A DNA stretch of 64,000 nt from Lotus japonicus. Taxonomy: Eukaryota > Streptophyta > Magnoliopsida > Fabales > Fabaceae. Position 1 is the first letter of the stretch, and every line of letters starts with the position of its first letter. The notes beneath the pieces were generated by a model that searched no databases, was not told the origin of the DNA, and worked only from the letters and a program-made list of their open reading frames with translations. Below are positions 1 through 33,463 of this stretch, piece after piece. The position numbers and the translations under genes are program-made. The DNA lies in contig NC_080046.1 of the NCBI RefSeq assembly GCF_012489685.1, positions 45,657,176-45,721,175 on the forward strand, in the 5' to 3' direction.

Positions 1-1
1 G

Positions 2-529: not shown

Positions 530-537
530 CTATAAAT
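530..537 (+). promoter_or_regulatory. TATA box of the coiled-coil cargo gene (copy A)
   Basis: CTATAAAT lies 97 bp upstream of the ATG at 634, inside the retroelement and on the strand opposite to gag-pol. It suggests the cargo gene has its own promoter instead of relying on the LTR. The identical site in copy B is at 17365-17372. Confidence 0.55.
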
Positions 538-633
538 GGAGCGTTTTTGGTTACTCCTTTTCAGTAACTTCTCCAAACTCTCCCTTGTTTCTTTTCCAGA
601 ATTCTTTTCCTGCTTTCATAACTCCCCTCAGTC

Positions 634-1119
634 ATGGCTATTCGTCGTGTTCTTAACCAGATCCGGAACTTGGCTTTTGATCAAGACTTATTCTGGGAGT
701 TGCATTCTTTCCTCCCTTTGGCTGAAGAGCTTACGGGGCTTATTAACCAACTCCTTTCGAGGAATATTATTGCCTCGGTAAGAATTCCTCTTCAGGAGTT
801 CTCGGGCCTCCTGCACGAAGCTGTACCTCTATATGAAGAACACCGGGAGCTTACTGCTCGAGTGTTCTTTGCTGAACACCAGATTGATGAGAAGATGGAG
901 GAGTATGAAGAGTTGAAGGCTGCTCTTAGCCAGGCGAAACTCGAGGGGAATGTGGGAGCTCTGAAACCCTTGGTGGACAAGCTTTCTTCTACTGCCCGTG
1001 AAGAGCTGGATATTCGACAGGAGAAATCGCGACTGGAATCCCAACAAGAAGATGTCTTGAGGCGCATGGAGCCTCTTAAGGCCAGATACAATAGTTGTAG
1101 GGCCAACCCTCCTTTTTAA
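634..1119 (+). CDS. 161-residue coiled-coil cargo protein, antisense to pol (copy A)
   Basis: An open frame with an ATG start (634), antisense to the retroelement, lying between the end of pol and the PMD gene. I do not recognise a family. Residues about 70-150 are rich in Glu, Lys, Leu and Arg in heptad-like spacing (for example EEYEELKAALSQAKLEG and REELDIRQEKSRLESQQEDV), which points to a long coiled coil. There is no signal peptide or membrane segment. A TATA box lies 97 bp upstream and an AATAAA at 1157-1162 follows the stop, so this looks like a complete small transcription unit. Its 3' end converges on the pol stop at 1199. The copy at 17469-17954 is identical. The coiled coil resembles in character the C-terminal tail of the neighbouring PMD protein, so a partner or split-off domain is possible (inference). 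Confidence 0.7.
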   Translation: MAIRRVLNQIRNLAFDQDLFWELHSFLPLAEELTGLINQLLSRNIIASVRIPLQEFSGLLHEAVPLYEEHRELTARVFFAEHQIDEKMEEYEELKAALSQAKLEGNVGALKPLVDKLSSTAREELDIRQEKSRLESQQEDVLRRMEPLKARYNSCRANPPF

Positions 1120-1156
1120 AATTTCTTTGCCATAGTTGTAATGCTCTATTCTATTC

Positions 1157-1162
1157 AATAAA
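1157..1162 (+). terminator. Polyadenylation signal of the coiled-coil cargo gene (copy A)
   Basis: AATAAA lies 38 bases after the stop at 1119 and 37 bases before the convergent pol stop at 1199. The transcript end would therefore meet or overlap the 3' end of the pol reading frame. Confidence 0.5.
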
Positions 1163-1198
1163 ACATTCGCATTTGGCAATTGATTCTCTTTTACTTCT

Positions 1199-4831: not shown

Positions 4832-7800
4832 TCATGGCATCAGGTTTACATGCTTCATTGAGGTTTAGGCCCCGGATGGGGTCCAACGTTACTGAGTACT
4901 CTGAGTAGGGGTTGAAGTACTGGCTAGCCACTGTGTCTAAAGGAGCAATTGTGGCTAAACTCTTCTCGAAATTCTTCTTACCAACGTAGCTTGTTTCTGC
5001 TAAATAGTAGCTTTGATCTGCTTGTACATTTTCGACAACTCCATCAGCTTTCCAAATGGATATACGTTGGTGTAAGGTCGAAGGCACTGCCCCCACGCCA
5101 TGAATCCATTCTCTTCCCAGCAGCAAATTGTAATTGGCCTTTGAAGGGACCACGATGAACAATGTGGAACGGGCTACTGTTCCTACGGTTATGTTCAACA
5201 TGATTGCCCCTAGGGAAGAACCTGTCTTTCCTTCATAATCGGAAAGTACCATGTCATGTGAGATTAGATCCGCTTCAGTTTTTCCTAACTTCTTGAGCAT
5301 AAATCCGGGCATGAGGTTAATTGCAGCTCCCCCGTCGACAAGGACTTTGTTAACACCCTTCTCCTCGACTCTGGCCCAAACAAATAGCGGTTTCAAATGG
5401 CTCTTCATTTGCTCGGTTGGCCTTTGGAAGATAGCTCTTTCATCTTCGACGGATCCTCTCTGCATCACATAATAACACAAAGGATTGTCATCTGGTTCGT
5501 CGTCGACATAGTAGTCTTCCTCACTTTCAGTGACCTCTGAGATTCTATCGAATTCTGCAGGTAGGATGGACACGATGCAGATGATGTTGAGCTCTTCTCC
5601 CTCACTGTCGTCGAAATCTTCGAGCATGTCTTCATCCTCATCCTCTACGACATTCTTCCCTTTTTCCTTAGCTGGATTTGATGGTATGGTTGCTCCCTGT
5701 TTGATGGCGTGATCCAGCTGGTTGATAATCGACGCCACATTAGGTTCATTGCGAGAGTTATCTTCTGGCTTTATGTCCCATAGTGAACGGAACTTGCCAC
5801 CTCTTTCCCTCTCAGCTTTCCTTTTCCTCAAAAAACGCCTGAACTGAGTCCTGGTCATCTGTTCAGGGGCATAGTAGTTCTCAGAGCCATAGGAGTAGCT
5901 TCGTGACACACGGGAATTGTTGATGTAAGAGGATCCCTGGCCTAAGTCGATTTTCTGCCACTTAGGGTATGGTTTTGGCCTTGGAGGCATTGGCCTGAAC
6001 CATTGGTTTCTTGGCAATCCAGCATTGGGGAGGTAGGTTTTGTCTTTACTGCTTGTTTTTTGGCCTTTATGGCCATCGAGTTCCTGGTCTCTTTCGACCC
6101 ACTCCTCATGAGGGTACTTCAGTCTCCTGGATACAGGAGCCTTCTTCTGATAATGCCTTTTCATTTCTGAATCTTGATAGGCCTTGGCTGCGGATTTGTC
6201 GAAAACAGCGCTGCATCGAGGGCACAACATAACCTCCCTCTCGCCGTCTTTGCTGCGGGATAGAAACTCGACAAGGGTTTCTCCAGCCTTGGGGTAAGCC
6301 TCTTCCAAGTTCACTTCTTTCACGACGTCTGGTTCTTCGACAGCCATGTTTTCCTCCTTTGCCTCCTCGAGTGTTAGGCCCAGATTCAGCTTCTCGGAAA
6401 TGTCAACCACGCCAATGTAGAAAGGTTCCACGTAGTTGGCTTCAGCTACCTGCAGTGGGTCAGAGTCAATCTTCATTTGACTTTTGGCTTTTTCGTCATA
6501 CTTGAGCCTTCCTGAGTCCAATGCCCCCTGCACGAGGTCCCTGAAACGAACACATTGTGAGGTCCAATGACCAAAAAAGTTATGATATTTGCAATATTTC
6601 TTCCCTTTCCTTTGTTCAGGAGAAGGAAGTTTTTGGTCTTTGGGGACCACAAGCAAACCATCAGACACAAGTATATCATAGATTGCATCACATTTGGCCA
6701 CATCAAAAGTATAAGTTTTTACAGCAGGAATCGTGTTCTTGGGATTTTCCTCCCCAAGCTTGTTTTCTCGTGGTTTCAATGCTTTACACACATAAGGATC
6801 CCCTGGCTGAAGTTCAGCCAGATTGACGTCATTCAAATCGACGTCCGCAGGGACTTCTCGATAAACACATGGATTCTGACCTACTGAATCCGCATCTATG
6901 TACGCTACTTTCTCCTTCTTTGGCCACTTAGTGGTCTTGGCCCTTTCCTCTGACTTTTCGGCCTTTAGCATTTCGATGTGCCTCACTCTATCTGCGAGTA
7001 AAGACATATCTCGAATATACTGAGTGTCGATCTTCTTTCTAATAGAATACTCTAGACCACCAGCGGCTAAGACAACTAGCTCGTGTTCAGGAACATGGGT
7101 GAAGCATCGAGATTTAAGCATCCTAAACCTGTTTAGGTAATCATCAATAGACTCTGCTGGCTTTCTTTTGACACTAGCCAGGTCTTTCAAACTTACTTTG
7201 CACTCTCCCCTAAAGAACTGTTCATGGAAAATTCTTTCCAACTGGGCCCATGTACGGACTGACCTGGGAGCGAGGGTAGTGAACCAGGTAAATGCATTTT
7301 TGGTTAAAGAACTCGGGAAGTACTTCATTTTCAAATTTTCATTGATGGCTAAGTCTCCTGCTTCGATTTGGTACCTGGCTATGTGTTCTACTGTGGACTC
7401 TCCTGAGAACTTAGTGAATTTGGGGACCTTCCAGCCTCGAGGAAGTTCTGATTCGAGAACCTCCTCTGTAAAGGCTGACACAAAATGGGGTCTATTCGCG
7501 AAACCCACGTTGAAACCATGTTGGTTCAACAATTGCTCCACCACAGCAGCAACATTTTGTTGCCCCCCAGCGTTCTGGTGTCGAATTCTTTCTAACACAC
7601 CATCAGCGTGTTCTTCCCTGTTTACCATATACACATTTTGCAATGGTGGCTGCACTGCCTCGTACAAAGGGTTTGCCCTCATCTCTTGGTGTTGCGGCGC
7701 CTGATAGCGCGCCGGGGCAGGGACATGGTTAGGCAACGGGATTTGGTTAATCCCTGGTGCCGGTTGGACTTCGACTGGTGCCCCCAGGGCTGTTGCCAAA

Positions 7801-8384
7801 CGATCCATCTGTCGTGCCAAATGCTGATTATTGGCATTATTATTTTGGAGCACAGGGTTGATTAGCTCACCTATCTGTCGAGATAGCATGTTAACCATTT
7901 CATGGTTACTATCATCTACTTGCTGCCTAATGGCTTGAAGTGAACCATTATTCATACCTGTAGATAAATAAATTTGTGAACTAGATCCAGGAATAGGGGG
8001 ACTAACTCGACTTCCCAAGTTTAACATTGTTCCGTTTACCCCAAAAGGGGGTATGCTGAATGGGGGAACATTTTCAGGGAACGTCGAACACGTGCCTTGT
8101 ATGCTTTGCATCATAGATGCAGGCATACCATAAGGCATGTCCCTCGTAATCGTTGGAACGATTTGTGCCTGTACTGATGTAGATACAGGCATTTCTGCAA
8201 CTGCAGAAATTGCCACATTCTGGGTTGGCATACTGGTGCCATGCCCCATTCCAGTAGACACTTCTTCATTATTATTACCACTACTTCCCCCGGGACTACT
8301 CTGATTACCCACGTTAGATCCTTGAGGGGAGGTTCTTCCTCGATTGCTTGCCATACTTATAGTCTTACCACTTCTCAGGCGCAT
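4764..8384 (-). CDS. gag: Gag-protease polyprotein, copy A
   Basis: 1206 codons from the first true ATG at 8384. The open frame extends 19 codons further up but has only a GTG there. The protein begins MRLRSGK, a common start for plant gypsy gag. A Gln/Asn/Pro-rich N-terminal region (about 1-280) precedes a retrotransposon gag capsid domain at about 300-450. A zinc-knuckle-like motif CKYHNFFGHWTSQC lies at about 598-611, and a further CPRC pair lies near 721-724. A basic and acidic linker follows, with the protease active site VDGGAAINLMP at about 1017. Asp-Gly-Gly replaces the usual DTG or DSG. The frame ends shortly after, in a one-base offset relative to pol. Gag packages the genomic RNA and the protease cuts the polyprotein. 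Confidence 0.9.
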   Translation of the reverse strand: MRLRSGKTISMASNRGRTSPQGSNVGNQSSPGGSSGNNNEEVSTGMGHGTSMPTQNVAISAVAEMPVSTSVQAQIVPTITRDMPYGMPASMMQSIQGTCSTFPENVPPFSIPPFGVNGTMLNLGSRVSPPIPGSSSQIYLSTGMNNGSLQAIRQQVDDSNHEMVNMLSRQIGELINPVLQNNNANNQHLARQMDRLATALGAPVEVQPAPGINQIPLPNHVPAPARYQAPQHQEMRANPLYEAVQPPLQNVYMVNREEHADGVLERIRHQNAGGQQNVAAVVEQLLNQHGFNVGFANRPHFVSAFTEEVLESELPRGWKVPKFTKFSGESTVEHIARYQIEAGDLAINENLKMKYFPSSLTKNAFTWFTTLAPRSVRTWAQLERIFHEQFFRGECKVSLKDLASVKRKPAESIDDYLNRFRMLKSRCFTHVPEHELVVLAAGGLEYSIRKKIDTQYIRDMSLLADRVRHIEMLKAEKSEERAKTTKWPKKEKVAYIDADSVGQNPCVYREVPADVDLNDVNLAELQPGDPYVCKALKPRENKLGEENPKNTIPAVKTYTFDVAKCDAIYDILVSDGLLVVPKDQKLPSPEQRKGKKYCKYHNFFGHWTSQCVRFRDLVQGALDSGRLKYDEKAKSQMKIDSDPLQVAEANYVEPFYIGVVDISEKLNLGLTLEEAKEENMAVEEPDVVKEVNLEEAYPKAGETLVEFLSRSKDGEREVMLCPRCSAVFDKSAAKAYQDSEMKRHYQKKAPVSRRLKYPHEEWVERDQELDGHKGQKTSSKDKTYLPNAGLPRNQWFRPMPPRPKPYPKWQKIDLGQGSSYINNSRVSRSYSYGSENYYAPEQMTRTQFRRFLRKRKAERERGGKFRSLWDIKPEDNSRNEPNVASIINQLDHAIKQGATIPSNPAKEKGKNVVEDEDEDMLEDFDDSEGEELNIICIVSILPAEFDRISEVTESEEDYYVDDEPDDNPLCYYVMQRGSVEDERAIFQRPTEQMKSHLKPLFVWARVEEKGVNKVLVDGGAAINLMPGFMLKKLGKTEADLISHDMVLSDYEGKTGSSLGAIMLNITVGTVARSTLFIVVPSKANYNLLLGREWIHGVGAVPSTLHQRISIWKADGVVENVQADQSYYLAETSYVGKKNFEKSLATIAPLDTVASQYFNPYSEYSVTLDPIRGLNLNEACKPDAMSGWHSDEEKDVTDGWQANDKDD

Positions 8385-8480
8385 ATAAATCACAATCAAG
8401 GCAAGTAGCAAATACCAAATAGCATGCAGCAAACAAAACACACAAAACGCTTCTGTAAAACTTAATCTTCACAAAAACGG

Positions 8481-8497: not shown

Positions 8498-8910
8498 ATT
8501 TGTTTACACGGATTTTTGGTAAACAAATATCCTCTTAGTTCGACTAAAGGAAGTTTAGATTTCAGGGTCCTTTTGAGAAAACGTTTTGCCAAAGTGTAGT
8601 GTGTGGACGGATGTGTTTTCGACAACAATAAACAACTTCAAACGAAACTGGATTTTATTGAATATGAGTCGATTACAAAATAGTCAAGCAAACCAAAATA
8701 ACATGAAAGCAAATTTCGACAAAACAAGCTACACATAAAAACTGGAAATTAACGAACTGAAATGCAAGGAAATTAAAGCGTTGGTTCTGCAACATACTCC
8801 TCCATCATCACGTTCTGCTCTCGAAGTCTCATTGATGCGGACGTTTAGAGCTTTTAGTGAATTTTCAGAGTTTTTCAGTTGGGAACCTCTTCTTCTGCTG
8901 CTGCTTCCTC

Positions 8911-8918
8911 TATTTATA
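8911..8918 (-). promoter_or_regulatory. TATA box of the E1 LTR promoter
   Basis: TATAAATA on the minus strand, about 400 bp into the LTR. Transcription would start some 30 bp further left and run into gag-pol. The LTRs of copies B and C carry the same box or a close match. Confidence 0.6.
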
Positions 8919-9022
8919 TTGTTCTTTCTGCCCATGTTCTTGGCGGTTTTCTTTGGATGCACGATGGCTTCGTGGGTTTTGAATTTTGGCGCCATCCCCA
9001 CGTTTAGCCGATGGTCTTCGCG

Positions 9023-9103
9023 CACGTGACTCTATTGCCACGTGGATGGTTCTGAGTCGTGGGCAACCGTTGCTATTCGTGGCGTCGTGGGTGTACGCAC
9101 GTG
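9023..9103 (-). promoter_or_regulatory. Three G-box motifs (CACGTG) in E1 LTR U3
   Basis: CACGTG occurs at 9023-9028, 9039-9044 and 9098-9103, between 105 and 190 bp upstream of the LTR TATA box. The palindrome is the classic plant bZIP/bHLH site. The same motifs are kept in the other E1 LTRs. Confidence 0.6.
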
Positions 9104-9317
9104 CTTGCAGTTGCTTATTGTTCGGTAACTGCTTCTTCCATTGAGATGATCGAGATTTCTTCATCTTCTGAGTGTGTCGAGTTATGGCTTTTTACTAACT
9201 TGTCTTTGGGGGACATCGTGTGCTGAGTTGCCGGCTTCGCCCAACCCCTTCTGTCGAGAAACCATTTTTTTGTACCATGGTGTCGATAATTGTAATGCTT
9301 CTAATTTTGGCTTAACA

Positions 9318-10077
9318 CCAGTACATTGAACATTATATATACTAACTTTGAGTCAAAATGGATTTTGGATGAGAAAGACCAAAATGTACATTGCAGAGTG
9401 TCTCTTGACTATAACAATATGCTTGAACACCGTTAATATATTCTTCGACCACAAAGGAAAACTTAAATATTAAGGTCGAAATATTAATATTCAACATGAT
9501 TGATCGAATTATAGTGCCTATATTATTGATTTCGGTCACGAAGACCGTTTTCTTTTATTTTCGGCCACATAGGCCGAAATTCAAATCAAGGTGTTCATGC
9601 TTCAACCAATACCTTTTCGTAGAAGTGATACTGGATGTATCATGTATGGAATTCTCAAACTTGAAATCCCAAAACTTGAAGCATTATTATCCATAAAAAC
9701 TAAACTTTTCCAATGCACAAGGCTTACAACAAAGTTGGAAATCACTGAAGTCTTCAATTCGTTATGAGACATTTTCATAAAAACTAAAAATAAAAAATCT
9801 CCTTCTGAATTTGAGATCGAAATGCTTTCTTCCTCCAATTAAAATTGAAAATATATATAGCCTTTTTATCCAACAAACCGTGTCAGATGGAAGAATTGAA
9901 CCAAGACTAGAAATCTAGTCACGAGGCCTTGAATTGAATTCCAGATTCTAAATTCACAATCGTCCAATAATTTAACAAGTTGATTTAATTTCACGAAATC
10001 AAAATCAAATCAACTGTGCATGCGACACTTTGAAAAATTTAGTTTTCACAAAACTTGTCCCACTGGGCGTGCCAATT
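9318..10077 (-). mobile_element. 5' internal part of the LTR2 element (non-coding)
   Basis: AT-rich stretch between CCAGT (9318-9322, target duplication of E1) and LTR2. In minus orientation it follows LTR2 and its primer-binding site (10058-10074), so it is the 5' end of the LTR2 element's internal region. I see no gag or other coding sequence. Confidence 0.7.
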
Positions 10078-11245
10078 TGTTTACACCAAATTTTGGTAAA
10101 ACAAATAGAAAATCCAAGGATCAATCTGGGACTGGATTCGAGTCCTCTTGGGTTCTTTGGTGAAAACGTTTGAGTGTCAATTCCAGTTTTTTTCATGAAG
10201 AACAGGATAAAGTAAAGAAATTGAAACAAGTAAAGAAAAATAAAAGAGAAAAAAGAAGAAAAGATGAAATAGTATGAATTGAAATGCAAAGTAAATGAGA
10301 TTACACCACAATCATGCTCATGATCTCCTAATTGCCATTTGTCTTTGTGATTGACTTGTTGGCTTTCAGAGTCTAGGAGCCTAAATGTGTGAAATCTGAT
10401 TATTTTACAAATAGAAGTTCTATTTATAGAACTTGGAATAAAACTACTATTTTAATCCTACGGATAATACTAAAACAGAAAAGAACTTCCTATATTAAAG
10501 CCATACACTTGGCATATCTACTGTTGTAGTAACTTGCACCACCTTCCAATAACTGCTTCTCTTGTAACCACTTCTTTGCTAGCTGTGAATCTTCATCTCT
10601 TGCTGCTCGGCTTCTTTTCTTTCATTTTGGGTCGAAGAAATAGTTTCAATTGATGTTGAAAATATAGTCGAAATATTAGTAATAAAATGCTTAGTACTTG
10701 GCAAGTTTGGAAATGTCTTCGACCATAATCCTGCCATCAACACGATGCCAAGTTCTACTATTTCTTAATATAAAATGAATCTTGCATGATGCATGGAAAT
10801 GCCTTTATGCACATTGCATATTAAACTTGGATCTATGTGGTGCTTCTCATATATTGAATGGACAATACATATTAGATCAAAGTCATGCTTTTCCCTTTGG
10901 CTTACTATATATCTCGACCCACAGTCCATGTTTCTCGACCTCTTACACTAACCAAGCCAAATTCTAGAATATACTTTTCCTTTGATTTATATACTATTAA
11001 AACTTGGGTCGACTAAATAATCTTTTTACCGGGTCGAAATACTACTCTAGCAACACCATATATAACTTCAATCTTAGCAATGTAAATATATGTCAAACAA
11101 TATTTCAACCCATGCCACCACCATATTTCGACCAATATATGTAAATAATAATAATTTGGCAGCAAAGTATAAACTACACTGACAACATTTACATATTTCA
11201 TATCTCAGTGATTAATTTAACCATTTGGAAATTTTGGTGTTAACA
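10078..11245 (-). repeat. LTR2: 1168-bp LTR flanked by PBS on one side and PPT on the other
   Basis: Begins TGTTTACACC and ends GTTAACA, closely echoing the E1 LTR ends, so the families are related. On the left is the same primer-binding site as E1. On the right (11246-11263) is a polypurine tract on the minus strand, TTTTGGGGGGCCTC. One LTR with internal sequence on both sides is what tandem, recombined or collapsed copies give. Confidence 0.8.
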
Positions 11246-11968
11246 GAGGCCCCCCAAAATGTTGTTTCTCGAAAAAAGTGAGAGGAATAACATTTTGAGT
11301 CATGTCACCAAAATTGATTAAACATTGTATGGCTTTCTTTGAAAACTTAGCCATCTTTTTCTTTACATTTTTTCGACCAAATTCAAACAAGGTAAGGACT
11401 TTGAAACAATTTGAGCCATATAATTATTGACCTTCTTTACTCGACTATTGTCTTCCTGTCTGGGGTCGAAGCAATGATCTAATATTTTTACAAATCTTGG
11501 TCGAAATATACTTGATCGAAGTACAAAAGCTTGGTCGCAATATACTCTAGTTAATTCGACCACTTTTACTAAATTTAAACTTGGTGAGGCTTTTGAGCCT
11601 TCTATAATCACATTTATTGGCTTTTAATCACAACCAATTTCTCTCCCTACTGGCATCGAAGAGTACTGAATTTTCTTCAAGTGATATCCTTGTTTTCGAA
11701 TGCTTTGCATCATCATATTTAACACCTCAACAGCCTTCGACCATGATAGTATACTAACACAACCATTTTATATTAACTATATATGTATCACATTTGAAGC
11801 ACCATAATTCCAAAGCTTCTATAATTTCGACCCCAAGACAATGTCAAAGTTCGACCAAAATGTCAATTTCTAAAATATACTTTCAATGTAATTGACAATA
11901 GTTCAATGTCAATTCCTCGTTGCTTTTCAAAGCCTTAAAATCTTAATAATAAAAGGTCATTGTCCAGT
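11246..11968 (-). mobile_element. 3' internal part of the LTR2 element (non-coding)
   Basis: AT-rich, with many scattered TCGACC motifs. It lies between the LTR2 polypurine tract and the CCAGT (11964-11968) in front of copy B's left LTR. No coding region is recognisable. Together with 9323-10077 it makes a 1.5-kb internal region lacking gag-pol, the size of a small non-autonomous element. Confidence 0.65.
11964..11968. repeat. Target-site duplication CCAGT (left side of copy B)
   Basis: Directly before the TGTT end of the LTR at 11969. Its partner is CCAGT at 9318-9322 after copy A, not the base string after copy B's right LTR (CCTCC at 26153). Confidence 0.75.
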
Positions 11969-12785
11969 TGTTTACACGGATTTTTGGTAAACAAATATCC
12001 TCTTAGTTCGACTAAAGGAAGTTTAGATTTCAGGGTCCTTTTGAGAAAACGTTTTGCCAAAGTGTAGTGTGTGGACGGATGTGTTTTCGACAACAATAAA
12101 CAACTTCAAACGAAACTGGATTTTATTGAATATGAGTCGATTACAAAATAGTCAAGCAAACCAAAATAACATGAAAGCAAATTTCGACAAAACAAGCTAC
12201 ACATAAAAACTGGAAATTAACGAACTGAAATGCAAGGAAATTAAAGCGTTGGTTCTGCAACATACTCCTCCATCATCACGTTCTGCTCTCGAAGTCTCAT
12301 TGATGCGGACGTTTAGAGCTTTTAGTGAATTTTCAGAGTTTTTCAGTTGGGAACCTCTTCTTCTGCTGCTGCTTCCTCTATTTATATTGTTCTTTCTGCC
12401 CATGTTCTTGGCGGTTTTCTTTGGATGCACGATGGCTTCGTGGGTTTTGAATTTTGGCGCCATCCCCACGTTTAGCCGATGGTCTTCGCGCACGTGACTC
12501 TATTGCCACGTGGATGGTTCTGAGTCGTGGGCAACCGTTGCTATTCGTGGCGTCGTGGGTGTACGCACGTGCTTGCAGTTGCTTATTGTTCGGTAACTGC
12601 TTCTTCCATTGAGATGATCGAGATTTCTTCATCTTCTGAGTGTGTCGAGTTATGGCTTTTTACTAACTTGTCTTTGGGGGACATCGTGTGCTGAGTTGCC
12701 GGCTTCGCCCAACCCCTTCTGTCGAGAAACCATTTTTTTGTACCATGGTGTCGATAATTGTAATGCTTCTAATTTTGGCTTAACA
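11969..12785 (-). repeat. 3' LTR of E1 copy B (817 bp)
   Basis: Same ends and length as 8501-9317 and no difference seen. Bases just to the right read as a polypurine tract on the minus strand, which makes this the 3' LTR. Confidence 0.92.
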
Positions 12786-12802
12786 GTTGCCCCCCAAAAA
12801 TG
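12786..12802 (-). other. Polypurine tract of E1 copy B
   Basis: On the minus strand CATTTTTGGGGGGCAAC runs directly into the TGTTAAG start of the 3' LTR. This is the expected plus-strand primer site. Confidence 0.8.
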
Positions 12803-13102
12803 TTGGTTGTCGACTGCTTTAGCTCAAAGACGCCAAGCATTTTTTTTTTTTTATCGCAGCCGTTCAATTCCAACGATTCAAATGCTTTGTGCTCTCGACC
12901 ATTCGATCTTCAAGTCCAATCGGCAGCCATAACGTCTGGTGACTTCTCCACTAGCTGACAGTTATAGCCTTTTTAGGGCCATGATTTCACCTATGCCAAA
13001 AAGCTGAGAGGTGACATGAATTAATTAATAAAATAATCGCTTGGAACCCAAAGTTTTTATAAATTGCTGCTCAATGCGGCTTGGGTTCCGTTTCCCCTTC
13101 CG

Positions 13103-13111
13103 TTTATAAAT
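13103..13111 (+). promoter_or_regulatory. TATA box of the PMD cargo gene
   Basis: TTTATAAAT lies 118 bp upstream of the ATG at 13229. A second TATA-like string lies near 13055. They sit between the 3' LTR and the gene, so the gene can be transcribed against the retroelement. Confidence 0.5.
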
Positions 13112-13228
13112 ACCCTCTTGGTATTCCTTGTTCAAGCTTTACTCTTTCATCCAACCTGCAACTTCTTCTTCCAGACTTCATCACTTCATCTTCTTCCGTC
13201 TTCTTTGAAACACTTGCTGCGTCCTTCA

Positions 13229-16200
13229 ATGGCTTCCAATCCTGAGCAAACCCTTCCGTTGGCCACCGAGCTTAAGCTGGATGAGTCCAAACGCGTGCCA
13301 ATCCCAGAACCTCCCAACGAAGCAGAGAAGAGAGCTATCTGGAAATCCCAGGTACTCATTCCTTTCTCTGTTAATGGTACTTTACGCGCCATTTTGGGCC
13401 CTTTGAAAGTAGTGAAGCATGATAGGCCCAATAGTCTCCCTGAAGAACATGAATCATTTCACCCTAGCGTTAGGGGAGAGGAGCTCATTTTGGCATTTCA
13501 ACCCTCTTACCGTATGCCATTTCTTTCTGACCCGAAACGAGCCTTTCGTTCGGCCCCTCCTAACCCTTCTGCTAACGACAAGGCCTACCTGAAATGGTTA
13601 GATAGGGTTGAGGGAGATAAGAAACAACACTGGAAGGATGTAGGGATTTTCGACTTGATTCAGTTGTCGAGATCTCCAAACTCGTATAACCCTGCTATGC
13701 TGTTGAGTGCACTTTATTTCTGGGAGAGGTCCACTAATTGCCTTCATGTTCCCTTTGGTATGATCACCCCCACTCTTTTGGATGTTGCCGCTATCACCGG
13801 ATTGTGGCCCATTGGTGATGATTATCATTCTGCACCTGCTCCTGTTAAACCCATCTCGATTCCTACTGACAACATTTCGTTTAGTCGATTCATTAAGGAC
13901 CATTATGTCGAGAGTGGTGAGGTGTCTGATGCTGAGCATGTCGCTTTCTTGCTGTATTGGCTGTCTGCTTATGTCTTTTGCACCAAATCTTTGCGCATAC
14001 CCGCCAAGCTTTTGCCTTTAGCCAATCTGCTTCACGAGGGTCGACAACTTGCTATGGCTAGGCTCGTCCTTGGCAACCTGTATCAAATGCTGAATGAGGC
14101 TGTCGAGGATATCCGGAACACCAAGACCGTCTCTCTGAATGCGGCCGGACCACTTTGGCTGTTTCAACTTTGGTTGAATGCGGTCTTCGAATCTCTTCTG
14201 CCGGTACAAGATAATCCTCTAACTGCTTCTAACACCAGGATTGATGCCCATAGGCTCGAGACCCTGACCCCTGCTTATGATGCGTCGAGTTTCGAAGCGG
14301 ACTTCAGGAAGTACTTTACCATGTTTCTCGAGCTGAAACACTACCGTTCCAGTTTCTCTCCTTACAGCAAGGCTATTCGTGGCCCTTTCTGGCTGAGGAA
14401 TTCTTATCCTAATGCCTCTGATTCTGCGTTGCCCAAGGAGCACCACATCACACTTTGGAGGACCCTCTTATCTCCTAGGGTTTTAACTGTGGGTTTTGCT
14501 AGCAGTGACTACACTCTATGTGGCTACAACCCTCAATTGGTTTCTCGACAGTTTGGGCTTAGCCAAGTTCTACCCAACACTTTATTTGACAAGAGTCTAG
14601 TCCTGTACCCCGGAACTATTAAGAGGGTTTCTGTTTTCGACAAGACTGTTCAATTTTATAACAAGAAACTCCTCAACCTGAGCCCCTTCACTTACGCTCC
14701 TTCATATTATGCCACTAATGCTTTCAAAGCCTGGTGGTCTGAGTATTGGGCTCAAATTTCGAAGCCCCTCGTCGATTGTCTGCAATGCATGACAGATGCT
14801 TTTCTTTTGCAGAAGCAGGATCCGAAGAAGACCAAAGGTATGCACCTGGCAGAAATTCGATCTTTTCAAGAGTTCTTCGGTGTGGTATATTACCCAACTC
14901 TTCGCCTTCGAGATACAGTTGCGCAAGCAGCTCAAGTATTAAGGCAAAAATGGGAACTTAAAGCCAAGAAATCCAAGTTAGTGGTTCCTCCTGGTGAGGA
15001 AGGTCTATCTTTTGTTATTCGAAAAACTGGCTTTAGGTTCCCGTCTTTGCCTACGAGTAGGTTTGCATTGGCTTTTCCACCGGTCTTGCCTAAATGGGTT
15101 GACCATATAAACATAAATGTATTGGCCAATCAAGCTCTACCTCCTCGAAAGCGAGTGACTTGGACTAAGTACCACCTGTGGAACTTTCCGTATCATGTGC
15201 CCGTCGAAATCTTCAACCACATATCGCTGAACATGCGTATTGGTCAAGGTAATACTTCGATTTGGCCTTGGTTTTCCTGTTTTACTTCTTAATTTTTCTT
15301 GTTTGCAGCTGAAGTCATTATTCGACCAGCTCCTCAAGTTATTTCCCCAGTGGCTCATTCCTCCAAGGACCACCCGGTCGTGATTGAGGATGATGATGAT
15401 GATGATGAGGATGATGATGTCAGTCTTGCTGACAAGCTCAAGGTACTTTCCTCATGCTCTTACCTTTTCCTTTTCGATTTCCTTGGATTATGGGCTGACG
15501 TATATTTCGACAGAGCCGGAAACGGAAACCTAAACCTGTTGCTTCGGCCAGTCAGAAGAGGGCCAAGGGGGTTGGTGTTTCCACCCCTAGTGAGGCTTCT
15601 AAGTTGGCATCTGATGCTCAAACAGAAGTCGCTGACAAAGAGGGTGGTGGCGGCGCCGCCATTCAGGTATGTTCTCCATTCTCGAGGGTACCTTGTGATA
15701 TTTTTAACCCGTGGTTTCCTAATCTGAGTCATCTCTTGTTTGTTTTGTTTCCTTTAGACTGATGTTCATGAGCACTCTACCTCCAATCCTCCATCCCGTG
15801 AGAATTCCCCAGCTCCCATTCCTGCAAAATCCAAAACTGAAGGTGTCGAGAAACCTCCCAAGGCCGCATCTTCAGCTAAGAAGACCCCCTCATCTGAGGG
15901 AAGGAGGAAGGTCAGGAGCAAATCTCGTCATAAGTCTCCTCGCCGTTCCAGAAGCTCCACCAACTCGAGCCCTTCCAAAGACTCTGCTTGCCAGGTATCT
16001 TTATACTTTTCATGTTTTGCTGACTCCTTTAATATGCGTTTTACTTTATCGAAAGGACATAAAAGGGGTTTTTCTTGCAGGAGACTCAGGGTACAACTTC
16101 TCCCATCCGCGAAGCAGAGCCCCTTCCAGGCAAAGATGACAGCCCTATGCCTCCTCCAAAATCGGCTGCCACTGTGCAACATTCGCCTCAAAACAAAGGT

Positions 16201-16956
16201 GGCTCTTCATCTCATGTGTCTAGTGAAAAGCTCGACACTTTATTTGAGGAGGACCCGCTGGCAGCTTTGGATAGCTTCCTCGATGGCACCTTGGAATGGG
16301 ACTCTCCACCCCGTCAAGTTGATGCTACTGCTGAGACTGCTCAATCAAGTGGGGTAGCCAATTCTCAGCAGATCGAGGAGAGCATGGGTCGGCTGAAGGC
16401 TATTGTCTTCGCCAATGGGTTTCTCGACCAGATCCAAGCTGATCCTCAAGCAAGCCATGCTGCTAAGGAATTGCTTGTCTTCCTTCTTGGCCAAAAACTC
16501 GACGCTCAACAGGCTGCTGCTTTGGCTAACCTTCAATCTTTTTTAGTGGATGCTTCGGCCACCTTTCATCAAATCAAGGACGTTGGTCAAGCTGTCAGCT
16601 TTAAGGAAGCAAAAGTCTCTGCTGGTAAAACTCAAGTTGCAGCAATGAAAGAGGACTTCAAGAAGTTCACTGCTAGGAAGGTTTTGATCGCAGATGAAAT
16701 CTCTGAAGTCGACATCAAACTTGAAGAGCTGCACCGAGAGATTACCAAACTGGAGAAAAAGCGAGCTGATTTGGTCGAGGAAGGCCCTGCTGTGAAGGAT
16801 CAATTGGACGTGCTTACTAAAGATTCCAAGGCTCTGATCATCTCGACAAAAGAGGTTATCAAGGAATTGGAGATTGATCAGGCTGTGAAGAAGGGTCTCG
16901 ATGCCAAGATTGCCACCTTTGCTGATTGTTTGAACTCTTTTAAGACCCTACTGTAG
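13229..16956 (+). CDS. Plant mobile domain (PMD/MAIN-like) protein, five exons, carried antisense in E1
   Basis: Exons by GT-AG signals and frame: 13229-15248, 15309-15442, 15514-15666, 15758-15994, 16081-16956; predicted length 1139 residues. Exon 1 holds the plant mobile domain, with the signature CLHVPFGMITPTLLDVAAIT at about 171-190 followed by GLWPIGD. Exon 2 has a SUMO-interaction-like motif, PVVIEDDDDD (from residue 696). Exons 3-4 are basic (SRKRKPK, then RRKVRSKSRHKSPRRSRSS) and probably direct the protein to the nucleus. Exon 5 ends in a long coiled coil (about 1040-1139). The ATG at 13229 is the first in frame; the frame is open further up but without ATG. Cellular relatives MAIN and MAIL1 act in the nucleus in meristem maintenance and transposon silencing; some PMD genes are known to travel on transposons. 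Introns survive because the element's genomic RNA is the antisense strand. The role in the element is inference. Confidence 0.85.
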
Positions 16957-17468
16957 GACTCTTTTTTTTTTTTAATATGTAATGATGGCACAATTCTAAC
17001 CATGGCTTTCGATGCCAATTACGTGTAATATTTCGACACTGGTTTTGGCACCTAAGCCATATAATTTGACGTTTAATTTGCCAAGTCTTTTCAGTTTCCA
17101 CTACGCATTTATTTTGACGGCTATTCATTTATTGTTGCATCGCTCAAACTTCCTTGCACCCCTTCACACAGTCGTCGCTTTGTTTCTGGGGAATGAACCA
17201 ATTTATTGCAATCTTATACCACGTTTTCTTGATTCAATGCAAGTCTTTGTTCATTAAAAGCCAAAGCTATTCACGATGGTGGTGGTAATCTGCATGGCCT
17301 ATAACCGTAAGATGAAGAGTTGGCAACTGATTGCCACTAATTAATGCATTCCTTGGTTGTTACCCTATAAATGGAGCGTTTTTGGTTACTCCTTTTCAGT
17401 AACTTCTCCAAACTCTCCCTTGTTTCTTTTCCAGAATTCTTTTCCTGCTTTCATAACTCCCCTCAGTC
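16957..17468 (+). promoter_or_regulatory. Spacer between the two cargo genes: 3' end of PMD and promoter of the coiled-coil gene
   Basis: Non-coding. It begins with a 12-T run just after the PMD stop and ends with a TATA box (17365-17372) and pyrimidine-rich leader before the ATG at 17469. It is identical to 122-633. No third gene is seen. Confidence 0.5.
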
Positions 17469-17954
17469 ATGGCTATTCGTCGTGTTCTTAACCAGATCCG
17501 GAACTTGGCTTTTGATCAAGACTTATTCTGGGAGTTGCATTCTTTCCTCCCTTTGGCTGAAGAGCTTACGGGGCTTATTAACCAACTCCTTTCGAGGAAT
17601 ATTATTGCCTCGGTAAGAATTCCTCTTCAGGAGTTCTCGGGCCTCCTGCACGAAGCTGTACCTCTATATGAAGAACACCGGGAGCTTACTGCTCGAGTGT
17701 TCTTTGCTGAACACCAGATTGATGAGAAGATGGAGGAGTATGAAGAGTTGAAGGCTGCTCTTAGCCAGGCGAAACTCGAGGGGAATGTGGGAGCTCTGAA
17801 ACCCTTGGTGGACAAGCTTTCTTCTACTGCCCGTGAAGAGCTGGATATTCGACAGGAGAAATCGCGACTGGAATCCCAACAAGAAGATGTCTTGAGGCGC
17901 ATGGAGCCTCTTAAGGCCAGATACAATAGTTGTAGGGCCAACCCTCCTTTTTAA
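17469..17954 (+). CDS. 161-residue coiled-coil cargo protein, antisense to pol (copy B)
   Basis: Identical to 634-1119. ATG start, TATA box 97 bp upstream and AATAAA 38 bp after the stop. The family is unknown: a predicted N-terminal helical part (residues 1-60), then a Glu/Lys/Leu-rich coiled coil. It is transcribed in the same direction as the PMD gene 512 bp upstream and converges on pol. Both cargo genes keep open frames while the gag of this copy is broken. Because the left part of B may be a recent copy of A, that is weak evidence of selection. Confidence 0.7.
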   Translation: MAIRRVLNQIRNLAFDQDLFWELHSFLPLAEELTGLINQLLSRNIIASVRIPLQEFSGLLHEAVPLYEEHRELTARVFFAEHQIDEKMEEYEELKAALSQAKLEGNVGALKPLVDKLSSTAREELDIRQEKSRLESQQEDVLRRMEPLKARYNSCRANPPF

Positions 17955-18033
17955 AATTTCTTTGCCATAGTTGTAATGCTCTATTCTATTCAATAAAACA
18001 TTCGCATTTGGCAATTGATTCTCTTTTACTTCT

Positions 18034-21000
18034 TTATTCGATGTTTATTTCATGCAATGTTGGCTTATACGTTTTTAAATATTTGCCATTTATCGTCATT
18101 TGTCGATTACCTCCTAATTCCTTAATCGAATAAGCGTTGTTTAAAAGCACTTTCTCGACTGAAAAAGGGCCTTCCCAGTTTGGGGACCATTTTCCGTAAC
18201 GTTTATCTTTTTTATCAATTGGTAAGACGACCTTCCATACGTAATCACCAAGCATAAAAGATTTAGCTCTAACCTTTTTGTTATAAGCTTTAGCAATGCG
18301 ATCCTTTTGCCTGGTTAAGGTATCCAACACCAATAGTCTTTCTTCGTCGAGATTGACTAATTCGTCAAGCATCATACTCCAATAATCTTCACTTGGAATT
18401 TCCTCTTGCCTTTGAATTCTGCATGACTGTAAATATACTTCTACTGGTAGTACCGCTTCTTGACCATATGCTAGTCGAAAAGGCGTTGCTCCGGTAGACT
18501 CCTTAGGTGAATTCCTGTAAGCCCAAAGCACTTGGCCTAACGTTTGATGCCAGTTTTTAGGTTTTCGACCAATATGTTTTTTAATCAAGGAGATCAACGT
18601 TTTGTTGGCCGCTTCGACTTGCCCATTCGCTTGAGCATAATAGGGGGTCGAGGTTAGGAGTTTTATACCCCAAGATTCTGCGAATGATGCTACCTTTTGG
18701 CCTACAAACACTGTGCCTTGGTCTGTAGTAAGTGACTCAGGTAGCCCAAAGCGGTACACTATGTGATTCTGAATGAACTCGATCACCGTGTCCTGGGTCA
18801 CATTTTGTAGAGGAATTGCCTCCACCCACTTGGTAAAGTAATCTATAGCCACTATGATGTACTTATGCTGCCTAGAAGAACATGGGTTAATTTCACCAAT
18901 TAGGTCTAAAGCCCAACCCCTGAATGGCCAGGGCTTAATAATCGAGTGTAGTTCACTTGCTGGCACATGTTGTATCCCCGCGTGTCTCTGACAATCTTGG
19001 CACCTCTTGGCATACTCCATACAATCTTTCATAATAGTAGGCCAATACATCCCTTGTCGAAATAGGATCCATTTCATCTTGATTCCTGCCTGGTGGGCAC
19101 CACATAGCCCGTCGTGAACGGCCGAGATCGCTATGAACGCGTCGTCTTCACTTAAACACTTCAGTAGTGTTCCGTCGACGTTTTTCTTGAATAGCTCGTT
19201 TCCCATGATGACATAGCTCATTGCCCTGTATTTTGTCTTTCTATCTGTAGTACCCACAGGATTTTGCAAGTAATCGACGATTGGCTTTCTCCAATCATTA
19301 GGTGCCATATTGTCAATGACCAGGATGTCGAGGTTAGAGGGGTTCAGTTTTTCTTTGACCTCGATAAGCTCTTTTAACCTACATTTATCGACCATATATC
19401 CTGATGCGATTTGTGCCAATTCATTGGCTTCTTGATTGTCCACTCTGGAAACGTGACCTAGCCTAGCTTCGTCGAATTTGGCCAATAAATTACTAGCTTT
19501 CGTGTAATACCTAGCTAGATTTTCACTAATGCACTTGTATTCCTTGGTAAGTTGCTTTATTACCAATTCAGAGTCCCCTTTTACGACGACATTCTTTGCC
19601 CCGAGGGCTATCAAGATCTCGAGGCCTGATGTTAATGCCTCATACTCAGCCTCATTGTTTGAGCAGTTACTCTTAATCTTAAACTTGAATTTTGTGGGGA
19701 TGCCCCTTGGGGATACGATGAACATCCCGATCCCAGTGCCATTCTTATGGCTAGAACCATCGAAAAATAGCTTCCAAGGTTGGATGCCTACGTAAGTTAT
19801 AATTTCTTGAGGCAAAGTATGGTCTGCCAGGAAGTCAGCAATTGCTTGTCCCTTAACTGCCTTTAGTGGGGCATAAGTTAGTGAATACTCGGTTAGGGCT
19901 AAAGCCCATTTACCAATTCGACTATGCAAGATAGGTTTGGATAACATGTGCTTTATTATATCATAATGAGAAAAAACCATTACATCGATTGGCTTTATAT
20001 AATATTTCAGCTTTACACAAGAGAAGTACAAGCATAAACACAATTTCTCGATCATGGTGTATCGAGTCTCTGCATCATTTAACACCCTGCTTAAGTAAAA
20101 TATGGCTCTTTCTTTGCTATCTTCATCTTCTTGAGCCAGCATGCTTCCGATGGTTCCATCCGTGGCAGAGATGTACAGCTTCATTGGCTTTCCTCTTATA
20201 GGTGGTGCCATTATAGGTGGGCTAGACAAGTACACTCTGAGTTCATCGAACGCTTTTTGATGCTCTGCTTCCCAGCGGAACGCATCTTCTTTTTTAAGTC
20301 GAAGAAGTGGGGAAAATGACTTGGTCTTCTCACTGAGGTTAGCAATGAATCTCCTTAGGAAGTTAATCTTTCCCAATAGTGATTGCAGTTGTTTCTTGCT
20401 AGTTGGTGGACTAGTGTCGAGAATGGCTTTAGCTTTGTTTTTGTTGATCTCGATACCCTTTTTATGCACCACAAAACCCAAAAAATCACCTGCAATAACA
20501 CCAAAGGCACATTTAAGGGGATTCATCTTCAAGCCATATTTTCTCATCCTCTCAAAGGATTTCCTTAGATGCAACAAATGGTCATCCCTTGATGGGGATT
20601 TCACCACAATGTCATCAATATAAACCTGCATGAAGGTTTCTATAAAATCATGAAAAATGGTATTCATTACCCTTTGGTAGGTCGCGCCAGCGTTTTTCAA
20701 CCCAAATGGCATGACCACCCACTCGTACGTCCCCAAGGCACCGGGACATCGAAAAGCTGTTTTCGACACGTCCTCTTCTGCTATGAAGATTTGGTTGTAG
20801 CCTGAGTAACCATCCAACAAGCTTAAGTATTCATGACCTGCAGCTGAATCCACCATCATCTCAGCAATAGGCATGTGATACTCGTCTTTTGGAGTGGCAG
20901 CGTTAAGATCTCGGAAATCTATGCAAACTCTCATCTTCCCATTCTTCTTGATTACTGGAACCACGTTGGCTAACCAGTCCACATATCGAGCTGTTCTGAT

Positions 21001-21303
21001 AAATTTACACCTGAGGAGTCTTTCGATTTCTTCCTTGATTTTCACCAACACATCTGGATGGAACCTCCTGGGCAGTTGCTTGACTGGTTTCTTGTTTTCT
21101 TTGATGGGTAACTTCAATTCCACCACTTCTCGACTGAGGCCAGGCATTTCATCGTAATCCCAAGCGAAACAGTCTTTGAATTCCTTGAGTAGTTTCACCA
21201 TCCTGTCTTTTAGCTCCGGGTCAATGAGAGCACTAATATACGTTGGCCTCTTTTCTAAGCCATCACCCAGGTCTACTTCTTCTAAAGGGTCTTGCGCTTC
21301 CAT
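18034..21303 (-). CDS. pol: Pol polyprotein, copy B (RT to integrase intact, upstream frame broken)
   Basis: 1089 codons with the same RT (YIDD), first and second RNase H and DD35E integrase as copy A; identical apart from one Ile-to-Val change near the start (DLGDG region). The frame cannot be followed upstream: one-base deletions near 21309, 21380 and 21540 break the linker to protease. The Met at 21303 is just the first available one. Enzymatic parts look whole but would need gag-protease from elsewhere. Confidence 0.85.
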   Translation of the reverse strand: MEAQDPLEEVDLGDGLEKRPTYISALIDPELKDRMVKLLKEFKDCFAWDYDEMPGLSREVVELKLPIKENKKPVKQLPRRFHPDVLVKIKEEIERLLRCKFIRTARYVDWLANVVPVIKKNGKMRVCIDFRDLNAATPKDEYHMPIAEMMVDSAAGHEYLSLLDGYSGYNQIFIAEEDVSKTAFRCPGALGTYEWVVMPFGLKNAGATYQRVMNTIFHDFIETFMQVYIDDIVVKSPSRDDHLLHLRKSFERMRKYGLKMNPLKCAFGVIAGDFLGFVVHKKGIEINKNKAKAILDTSPPTSKKQLQSLLGKINFLRRFIANLSEKTKSFSPLLRLKKEDAFRWEAEHQKAFDELRVYLSSPPIMAPPIRGKPMKLYISATDGTIGSMLAQEDEDSKERAIFYLSRVLNDAETRYTMIEKLCLCLYFSCVKLKYYIKPIDVMVFSHYDIIKHMLSKPILHSRIGKWALALTEYSLTYAPLKAVKGQAIADFLADHTLPQEIITYVGIQPWKLFFDGSSHKNGTGIGMFIVSPRGIPTKFKFKIKSNCSNNEAEYEALTSGLEILIALGAKNVVVKGDSELVIKQLTKEYKCISENLARYYTKASNLLAKFDEARLGHVSRVDNQEANELAQIASGYMVDKCRLKELIEVKEKLNPSNLDILVIDNMAPNDWRKPIVDYLQNPVGTTDRKTKYRAMSYVIMGNELFKKNVDGTLLKCLSEDDAFIAISAVHDGLCGAHQAGIKMKWILFRQGMYWPTIMKDCMEYAKRCQDCQRHAGIQHVPASELHSIIKPWPFRGWALDLIGEINPCSSRQHKYIIVAIDYFTKWVEAIPLQNVTQDTVIEFIQNHIVYRFGLPESLTTDQGTVFVGQKVASFAESWGIKLLTSTPYYAQANGQVEAANKTLISLIKKHIGRKPKNWHQTLGQVLWAYRNSPKESTGATPFRLAYGQEAVLPVEVYLQSCRIQRQEEIPSEDYWSMMLDELVNLDEERLLVLDTLTRQKDRIAKAYNKKVRAKSFMLGDYVWKVVLPIDKKDKRYGKWSPNWEGPFSVEKVLLNNAYSIKELGGNRQMTINGKYLKTYKPTLHEINIE

Positions 21304-24300
21304 TTTCTTGGAAATTCGACCACTGGCTTCTCGAAGCCTAATGGGCCGTCATCATAGATGCAATCTAGCCTCAGATTGCAAGGTCCTCGAATCCGCATTT
21401 CTCAGCACTCTGCTCGTTTATTTCTATGCACGTGTCATCCTTATTTATTGTTGCCTCCTCCTGAGGTGTTAATTCGACAGGCAGGATTGAGACATTAGCT
21501 TCGTCTATAGCCATTTCTTTGGCCATCCTCTCGGCCTCCAGGCCGTTCTTATTTTGTTTTCGGCTGCGTAAGCCGAAATTCGAGCCATGCTCGAATTAAT
21601 CATCTTTATCATTGGCTTGCCACCCATCAGTGACATCTTTCTCTTCATCACTGTGCCATCCGCTCATGGCATCAGGTTTACATGCTTCATTGAGGTTTAG
21701 GCCCCGGATGGGATCCAACGTTACTGAATACTCTGAGTAGGGGTTGAAGTATGGCTAGCCACTGTGTCTAAAGGAGCAATTGTGGCTAAACTCTTCTCAA
21801 ATTCTTCTTACCAACGTAGCTTGTTTCTGCTAAATAGTAGCTTTGATCTGCTTGTACATTTTCGACAACTCCATCAGCTTTCCAAATGGATATACGTTGG
21901 TGTAAGGTCGAAGGCACTGCCCCCACGCCATGAATCCATTCTCTTCCCAGCAGCAAATTGTAATTGGCCTTTGAAGGGACCACGATGAACAATGTGGAAC
22001 GGGCTACTGTTCCTACGGTTATGTTCAACATGATTGCCCCTAGGGAAGAACCTGTCTTTCCTTCATAATCGGAAAGTACCATGTCATGTGAGATTAGATC
22101 CGCTTCAGTTTTTCCTAACTTCTTGAGCATAAATCCGGGCATGAGGTTAATTGCAGCTCCCCCGTCGACAAGGACTTTGTTAACACCCTTCTCCTCGACT
22201 CTGGCCCAAACAAATAGCGGTTTCAAATGGCTCTTCATTTGCTCGGTTGGCCTTTGGAAGATAGCTCTTTCATCTTCGACGGATCCTCTCTGCATCACAT
22301 AATAACACAAAGGATTGTCATCTGGTTCGTCGTCGACCTAGTAGTCTTCCTCGCTTTCAGTGACCTCTGAATTCTATCGAATTCTGCAGGTAGGATGGAC
22401 ACGATGCAGATGATGTTGAGCTCTTCTCCCTCACTGTCGTCGAAATCTTCGAGCATGTCTTCATCCTCATCCTCGACGACATCCTTCCCTTTTTCCTTAG
22501 CTGGATTTGGTGGTATGGTTGTTCCCTGTTTGATGGCGTGATCCAGCTGGTTGATAATCGACGCCACACTAGTTCATTGCGAGAGTTGTCTTCTGGCTTT
22601 ATGTCCCATAATGAGCGGAACTTGCCACCTCTTTCCCTCTCAGCTTTCCTTTTCCTCAAAAAACGCCTGAACTGAGTCCTGGTCATCTGTTCAGGAGCAT
22701 AGTAGTTCTCAGAGCCATAGGAGTAGCTTCGTGACACACGGGAATTGTTGATGTAAGAGGATCCCTGGCCTAAGTCGATTTTCTGCCACTTAGGGTATGG
22801 TTTTGGCCTTGGAGGCGTTGGCCTGAACCATTGGTTTCTTGGCAATCCAGCATTGGGGAGGTAAGTTTTGTCTTTACTGCTTGTTTTCTGGCCTTTATGG
22901 CCATCGAGTTCCTGGTCTCTTTCGACCCACTCCTCGTGAGGGTACTTCAGTCTCCTGGATACAGGAGCCTTCCTCTGATAATGCCTTTTCATTTCTGAAT
23001 CTTGATAGGCCTTGGCTGCGGATTTGTCGAAAACAGCGCTGCATCGAGGGCACAGCATAACTTCTTTCTCGCCATCTTTGCTGCGGGATAGAAACTCGAC
23101 AAGGGTTTCTCCAGCCTTGGGGTAAACCTCTTCCAAGTTCACTTCTTTCACGACGTCTGGTTCTTCGACAGCCGTGTTTTCCTCCTTTGCCTCCTCGAGT
23201 GTCAGGCCCAGATTCAGCTTCTCGGAAATGTCAACCATGCCAATGTAGAAAGGTTCCACGTAGTTGGCTTCAGCTACCTGCAGTGGGTCGGAGTCAATCT
23301 TCATTTGACTTTTGGCTTTTTCGTCATACTTGAGCCTTCCTGAGTCCAATGCCCCCTGCACGAGGTCCCTGAAACGAACACATTGTGAGGTCCAATGACC
23401 AAAAAAGTTATGATATTTGCAATATTTCTTCTCTTTCGTTTGTTCAGGAGAGGGAAGTTTTTGGTCTTTGGGGACCACAAGCAAACCATCAGACACAAGT
23501 ATATCATAGATTGCATCACATTTGGCCACATCAAAAGTATAAGTTTTTACAGCAGGAATCGTGTTCTTGGGGTTTTCCTCCCCAAGTTTGTTTTCACGTG
23601 GTTTCAATGCTTTACACACATAAGGATCCCCTGGCTGAAGTTCAGCCAGATTGACGTCATTCAAATCGACGTCCGCAGGGACTTCTCGATAGACACATGG
23701 ACTCTGACCTACTGAATCCGCATCTATGTACGCTACCTTCTCCTTCTTTGGCCACTTAGCAGTCTTGGCCCTTTCCTCTGAATTTTCGGCCTTTAGCAAT
23801 TCGATGTGCCTCACTCTATCTGCGAGCAAAGACATATCTCGAATATACTGAGTGTCGATCTTCTTTCTAATAGAATACTCTAGACCACCAGCGGCTAAGA
23901 CAACTAGCTCGTGTTCAGGAACATGGGTGAAGCATCGAGATTTAAGCATCCTAAACCTGTTTAAGTAATCATCAATAGACTATGCTGGCTTTCTTTTGAC
24001 ACTAGCCAAGTCCTTCAAACTTACTTTGCACTCTCCCCTAAAGAACTGTTCATGGAAAATTCTTTCCAACTGAGCCCATGTATGGACTGACCTAGGAGCG
24101 AGGGTGGTGAACCAGGTAAAGGCATTTTTGGTTAAAGAACTCGGGAAGTACTTCATTTTTAAATTTTCATTGATGGCTAAGTCTCCTGCTTCGATTTGGT
24201 ACCTGGCTATGTGTTCTACCGTGGACTCTCCTGAATCCCCTGAGAACTTAGTGAATTTGGGGACCTTCCAGCCTCGAGGAAGTTCTGATTCGAGAACCTC

Positions 24301-25334: not shown

Positions 25335-25337
25335 ATT

Positions 25338-26152
25338 TGTTTACACGGATTTTTGGTAAACAAATATCCTCTTAGTTCGACTAAAGGAAGTTTAGATTTC
25401 AGGGTCCTTTTGAGAAAACGTTTTGCCAAAGTGTAGTGTGTGGACGGATGTGTTTTCGACAATAATAAACAACTTCAAACGAAACTGGATTTTATTGAAT
25501 ATGAGTCGATTACAAAATAGTTAAGCAAACCAAAATAACTTTAAAGCAAATTTCGACAAAACAAGCTACACATAAGAACTGGGAATTAACAAACTGCAAT
25601 GCAAGGAAATTAAAGCGTTGGTTCTGCAACATACTCCTCCATCATCACGTTCTGCTCTCGAAGTCTCATTGATGCGGACGTTTAGAGCTTTTAGTGAATT
25701 TTCAGAGTTTTTCAGTTGGAACCCTCTCTTCTGCTGCTGCTTCCTTTATTTATATTGTTCTTTCTGCCCATGTTCTTGGCGGTTTTACTTGGATGCACGA
25801 TGGCTTCGTGGGTTTTGAATTTTGGCGCCATACCCCACGTTTAGCCGATGGTCTTCGCGCACGTGACTCTATTGCCACGTGGATGGTTCTGAGTCGTGGG
25901 CAACCGTTGCTATTCGTGGCATCGTGGGTGTACGCACGTGCCTGTAATCGCTTGTTATTCGGTAACTGCCTCTTCCATTAAGGTGATCGAGATTTCTTCA
26001 TCTTCTGAGTGTGTCGAGTTATGGCTTTTACTAACTTGTCCTTGAGGGACATCGTGTGCTGAGTTGCCGGCTTCGCCCAACCCCTTATGTCGAGAAACCA
26101 CTTTTTGTACCATGGTGTCGATAATTGTAATGCTTGTAATTTTGGCTTAACA
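25338..26152 (-). repeat. 5' LTR of E1 copy B (815 bp)
   Basis: Ends TGTT and AACA. Shares variants with the LTR of copy C (for example the CTTGTTATTCGG and TTAAGGTGATCG stretches near 25951-25987) that are absent from the LTRs at 8501 and 11969. The three CACGTG boxes are kept. The right flank is CCTCC, not CCAGT. Confidence 0.92.
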
Positions 26153-33318: not shown

Positions 33319-33322
33319 TTAG

Positions 33323-33334
33323 TGGTATCAGAGC
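33323..33334 (+). other. Primer-binding site of D
   Basis: TGGTATCAGAGC, complementary to the 3' end of initiator methionine tRNA, four bases after the LTR. Confidence 0.9.
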
Positions 33335-33463
33335 AATGGTTGGTCAGAGACCAAGTTTTTAGTATAATATATATTCTAATACTTACTGATACTCGATATG
33401 TGTAAGTAGCACTATCGAGCTGTTGTTTGATAAGAGTTGTTGGCTGTTTGGAGATTCAGGAAA

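Follow-up and report, generated by a model that had tools for sequence, protein, structure and literature searches.

An intron-bearing plant mobile domain gene under purifying selection on the antisense strand of an Ogre-type retrotransposon in Lotus japonicus

How can a long terminal repeat (LTR) retrotransposon carry a gene with introns, and what would such a gene do for it? The question is raised by a 64,000-nucleotide stretch of Lotus japonicus DNA (NC_080046.1, positions 45,657,176 to 45,721,175; hereafter the window), in which the Ty3/gypsy element E1 carries a plant mobile domain (PMD) gene on the strand opposite to its own gag-pol. In the literature the PMD figures as a domain whose function is unknown, although no other extra domain of Ogre elements is as prominent and host silencing factors contain it too. 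An original prediction from the sequence proposed that the element uses its PMD protein to interfere with, or borrow, the host's silencing machinery. Here, purifying selection is shown to act on the PMD coding sequence, which the genome holds in many copies.

Mapping of open reading frames (ORFs) and domains bears out the predicted position of the gene, between integrase and the 3' LTR on the plus strand (Table 1), and the nature of its product. Residues 139-503 match PF10536 with an E value of 2.4e-35 and 122.8 bits against a curated cut-off of 34.9, over profile positions 1-346 of 347, which places the protein in that family. The predicted TATA box, TATAAATA, is kept in 9/9 copies, starting 124 nt ahead of the start codon at 13229. 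Four GT-AG introns can be recognised, and the spliced reading is open for 1139 aa.

With the DNA of the gene as query, 40 copies were scored of 704 first-look candidates, including the window's own, that of a neighbouring element (E0) and 38 others. Identity is 97-100%, and 37/40 cover all 3728 bases, introns included, as the prediction had anticipated (two cover 1-3649 and one 1-2758). Because the query was the gene itself, copies without it were invisible to this search; E2, a third copy of the element that starts mid-pol at 26789 in the window, lacks it. Eight of the 38 others were retrieved for analysis, seven at 97-98% identity and one at 99%. The ATG, the stop, five donors and four acceptors are kept in all eight, and none has an indel in an exon; three have one in-frame stop.

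The ratio of nonsynonymous to synonymous divergence (dN/dS), predicted to be low, is 0.174 for the whole gene, far from 1 (nine copies, 36 pairs; codon bootstrap 0.13-0.24, a range that covers codons and not the ancestry that the pairs share). With each variable codon counted once, it is 0.24. By part, it is 0.13 in the PMD, 0.17 in the alternative segment described below (0.05-0.62), 0.22 in exons 2-4 and 0.26 in exon 5. The introns (15249-16080) differ by 1.7% per site between copies, below the dS of 4.9%; with the introns as yardstick, dN would come to about half. In 7/8 copies, the LTR plus 5' untranslated region (UTR) matches the window at 94-97% identity, which is lower than the 97-98% seen for the gene in these copies; in the eighth the values are 99.7% and 99.4%, respectively.

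A pseudogene-like passenger or recently captured host gene, of no use to the element, could explain the single stop in 3/8 copies. This account is hardly credible: purifying selection contradicts it, relatives of the same type occur in several plant families, including rice proteins labelled Ty3-gypsy, and a PMD is reported in 57% of Ogre elements (PMC6317226). It may instead be the antisense RNA that matters, forming double-stranded RNA with the genomic RNA and giving rise to small interfering RNAs that limit the element, a role that has been proposed for antisense ORFs (PMC7264820). The dN/dS of 0.17, the kept frame, signals and splice sites, and the conservation of the protein in other legumes weaken this idea, which we regard as highly improbable.

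The predicted exon structure stands in part. All introns are GT-AG, but the 60-nt first intron of the 1139-aa model is used by 0/96 retrieved proteins. Five proteins named L. japonicus (P0001, P0003, P0005, P0006 and P0007) read KKT(K/R) followed directly by AE, a junction that maps here to donor 14838 and acceptor 15308, so that the intron spans 471 nt and the product has 1002 aa. Isoform labels on 4/5 of these models may point to transcript support. The segment it removes is carried by 4/96 retrieved proteins, in unspliced ORFs of about 664-687 aa that end shortly beyond it. Its identity to the window in P0002, P0004, P0016 and P0022 (97, 42, 34 and 32%) matches that of their PMD regions (97, 43, 34 and 33%). 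Because the skipped segment is conserved as protein in the same way as the PMD, and the tail form is present in Lotus models, at least two forms are plausible, one joining the PMD to the segment and the other joining it to the tail. The 1139-aa form, joining both, is possible because donors 14838 and 15249 are GT in 9/9 copies.

Antisense placement offers an answer to how the introns could last. The unit would be transcribed from its own conserved TATA box, and since the genomic RNA of the element is the other strand, the introns would not be removed during replication. If so, the locus would be a case of an LTR retrotransposon retaining a spliced, selected gene by virtue of its orientation.

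The closest protein matches are named Lotus japonicus and are 96-97% identical. PF10536 is present in 62/62 listed proteins, most of which come from legumes; pineapple, Prunus and rice supply others, and some of the rice proteins carry the Ty3-gypsy label. The window PMD clusters with P0001, P0003 and P0005 in a tree of 33 rows and is separated there from eight further PMD loci of this genome (SH-aLRT 100; MAIN, MAIL1 and PMD-C references are absent from this tree), in each of which the PMD is one open frame. This bears on a further explanation, in which a conserved PMD gene works like MAIN and MAIL1 and moderates or silences the element and its relatives, as self-restraint or to the host's benefit. 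Both proteins have a PMD and silence transposable elements (PMC5418596, PMC7156037); they are host genes required for silencing and not carried on a mobile element. Against this explanation, the window PMD falls with the transposon-type PMDs, and we consider a MAIN/MAIL1-like role quite improbable.

Several observations accompany the tree. Six PMD loci (L001, L003-L006 and L008), each with its PMD in a single open frame, form a cluster at C6:44812874-44936243, some 0.72-0.84 Mb to the left of the window, and are probably host genes. P0028 and similar Trifolium repens proteins are named 'serine/threonine-protein phosphatase 7 long form'; P0028 falls with the transposon-type PMDs, and these proteins may be misnamed. 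Twenty loci picked by PF10536 matches (L009-L028) were rejected as copies, as they belong to other families, and were kept for comparison only. Relatives of the PMD in collections of viral contigs and genome contigs were sought, and none was confirmed.

What the protein might do is suggested by its predicted structure, which has the VANC fold. Among the structural neighbours found, only one is good, the anti-silencing protein VANC21, which binds DNA and has 9% identity to the PMD. VANC21 differs in residing on a DNA transposon, the Mutator-like element (MULE) VANDAL21, and in carrying DUF1985 instead of PF10536; the window PMD matches PF10536 alone at E <= 5, and DUF1985 is not among 25 of 77 families listed for 55 members. 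A sequence search of the PDB with the PMD protein gave no match at E <= 0.1; at E <= 10 there were 62, the best and most of them in the low-complexity or coiled-coil tail, with none named VANC among 60 listed. A fold search of BFVD gave no match at E <= 0.001. A first AlphaFold model (673 aa, 11 rows) was poor, with a mean confidence (pLDDT) of 51.5, and was not used.

Our preferred reading, held tentatively and at slightly less than even confidence, is that an Ogre element with its own antisense unit encodes a VANC-like PMD protein that counters silencing of the element's DNA in the nucleus. Judging by the fold, the PMD would be a DNA-binding module acting on the element's own DNA, and the tail and alternative segment would set the form of the protein. 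The predicted use of host silencing machinery is partly supported overall. Purifying selection would suit any useful function, and the protein could instead be an accessory factor for retrotransposition, with a role in nuclear import or an RNA or particle function, that leaves silencing untouched, as suggested for other antisense ORFs. The Grande protein GENE23 is nuclear, and regulatory or accessory functions have been put forward (PMC7264820, PMC11963269). Given that the sole good structural neighbour is a DNA-binding anti-silencing protein, we regard the accessory role as unlikely, though less so than the other alternatives. The tie to VANC21 gives PMDs a testable biochemical role and would open the arms race behind MAIN and MAIL1 to direct testing.

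If the PMD protein does act on element DNA, dispersed TCGA-centred sites are a candidate target. In a search for a VANC-like target site, k-mers were counted, and TCGA was found 137 times in E1 against 41.5 in dinucleotide shuffles. Its density is 9.7 per kb; eight control stretches have 0.8-3.4 per kb, and 20 further PMD loci have 1.0-3.2. The motif is spread evenly over LTRs, exons, introns, gag and pol with no tandem array, unlike VANC motifs, which lie in noncoding tandem repeats. The stretch 10031-11968, largely an Ogre-type LTR that cannot be aligned to that of E1, holds 21 TCGA against 3.5 expected, accounting for 21/29 of its CpGs. Within the gene, 4/45 CpGs in TCGA vary among the nine copies, compared with 36/91 other CpGs (p 1.4e-4), and where deamination is synonymous the counts are 4/30 and 33/67 (p 7e-4). 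TCGA is thus a real compositional oddity.

Two results weigh against lower variability at TCGA as a general pattern. In the LTR and 5' UTR, variability does not differ (7/15 for TCGA and 25/54 for other CpGs), and comparisons among E0, E1 and E2 are not significant (p 0.07, 0.13 and 0.24). For these reasons, a link between TCGA and the PMD is unproven, and TCGA as a general shield of CpGs was rejected. Regular spacing was also rejected (coefficient of variation 1.02, as for random sites), and no CpG motif specific to each PMD locus is claimed, given that 2/4 random controls (L031 and L032) were also enriched in CpG 6-mers. A bolder proposal, that the Ogre PMD is a VANC-type sequence-specific anti-silencing factor with a TCGA target kept element-wide, and that MAIN/MAIL1 and the VANC proteins of MULEs are branches of one ancient fold, appears distinctly doubtful.

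By the layout of its coding regions, the host element is best read as an Ogre-type (Tat clade) Ty3/gypsy retrotransposon. In 18037-21348, RT_RNaseH is followed by a second RNase H-type domain (RVT_3 at 529-646) and then integrase, an order described for Ogre and Retand (PMC6317226). The two-ORF organisation of gag-pro and pol is seen in E0, where the gag ORF (4764-8468) overlaps the pol ORF (1199-4831) in a different frame. A sequence resembling a primer-binding site (PBS), TTGGCACGCCCAGTGGGAC, adjoins the 5' LTR.

E1 lies on the minus strand, from its 5' LTR (25337-26152) to its 3' LTR (11969-12785). It was rejected as an intact insertion, because its LTRs are 96.1% identical to each other, its flanks are unequal (CCAGT and CCTCC), and its left part with the flank from 10078 (10078-22330) is a 99.96% copy of E0. 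The 3' LTR is identical at 817/817 positions to 8501-9317 and to L029:3271-4087. The near-exact match of the left part to E0 reflects either recent duplication or recombination, or an assembly artefact. E0 itself (L029:1380-9601 plus window sequence) resembles one element spanning the 100-N gap at L029:9602-9701, with identical LTRs and CCAGT at both L029:3266-3270 and 9318-9322 of the window.

Parts of this arrangement are known. Gypsy elements throughout the angiosperms encode PMDs of the PMD-A clades (PMC5418596), one survey found no unusual Gypsy domain more often than the PMD (PMC9289625), and its first report in such elements is attributed to Steinbauerova 2011 (per PMC5418596). Features shared with the Ogre lineage are an additional RNase H-type domain ahead of integrase, the division of gag and pol between two ORFs (as seen in E0) and the PMD extra ORF, whereas the orientation of that ORF, a multi-exon gene, alternative first-intron donors and dN/dS are absent from the accessible text of PMC6317226. 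Antisense accessory ORFs of Grande, RIRE2 and Retand also lie between pol and the 3' LTR on the opposite strand, in Grande with a promoter of their own (PMC7264820, PMC11963269); in the accessible text no PMD is named for them, and those of Retand mostly carry TRP28. A literature search over partial texts found no prior spliced antisense architecture with a conserved alternative segment, parts of which may stand in Steinbauerova 2011, and no prior dN/dS for the PMD gene, fold link to VANC21 or TCGA pattern.

Table 1. Coordinates of the PMD gene and of other features of E1 in the window
Feature	Position	Strand	Remark
Promoter and 5' UTR of PMD gene	12786-13228	+	TATAAATA begins 124 nt upstream of ATG
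PMD exon 1, to donor used by NCBI Lotus models	13229-14837	+	holds PF10536 (aa 139-503)
Alternative coding segment, 137 aa	14838-15248	+	intron in 1002-aa form, exon in 1139-aa form
60-nt intron of 1139-aa model	15249-15308	+	acceptor common to 471-nt intron
PMD exon 2	15309-15442	+	
PMD exon 3	15514-15666	+	
PMD exon 4	15758-15994	+	SR-rich low-complexity tail
PMD exon 5	16081-16956	+	C-terminal coiled-coil-like tail, ends at stop TAG
Second antisense ORF, 161 aa	17469-17954	+	coiled-coil-like; own TATAAAT upstream
3' LTR of E1 (TG...CA)	11969-12785	-	left flank CCAGT
5' LTR of E1	25337-26152	-	right flank CCTCC
pol ORF	18034-21348	-	RT, RNase H, second RNase H-type domain RVT_3, integrase

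The predicted range ran to 17954, but 17469-17954 is a separate ORF and does not belong to the PMD gene. A homologue search of a large database with this ORF found none at E <= 1e-3. Scored against 62 matches only, it weakly resembles the C-terminus of P0005 and P0006 (21.5%, E 6e-9), and has the look of a truncated relative of the tail that ends P0005 and similar PMD proteins. Elsewhere in the window, an LTR-like stretch at 10078-11968, with an Ogre-type PBS alongside, can be aligned to the E1 LTR in its first bases only. A young LTR element at 30840-37128, with LTRs of about 2.48 kb that are 99.5% identical and ATCAG on either side, sits inside the third copy of the Ogre element.
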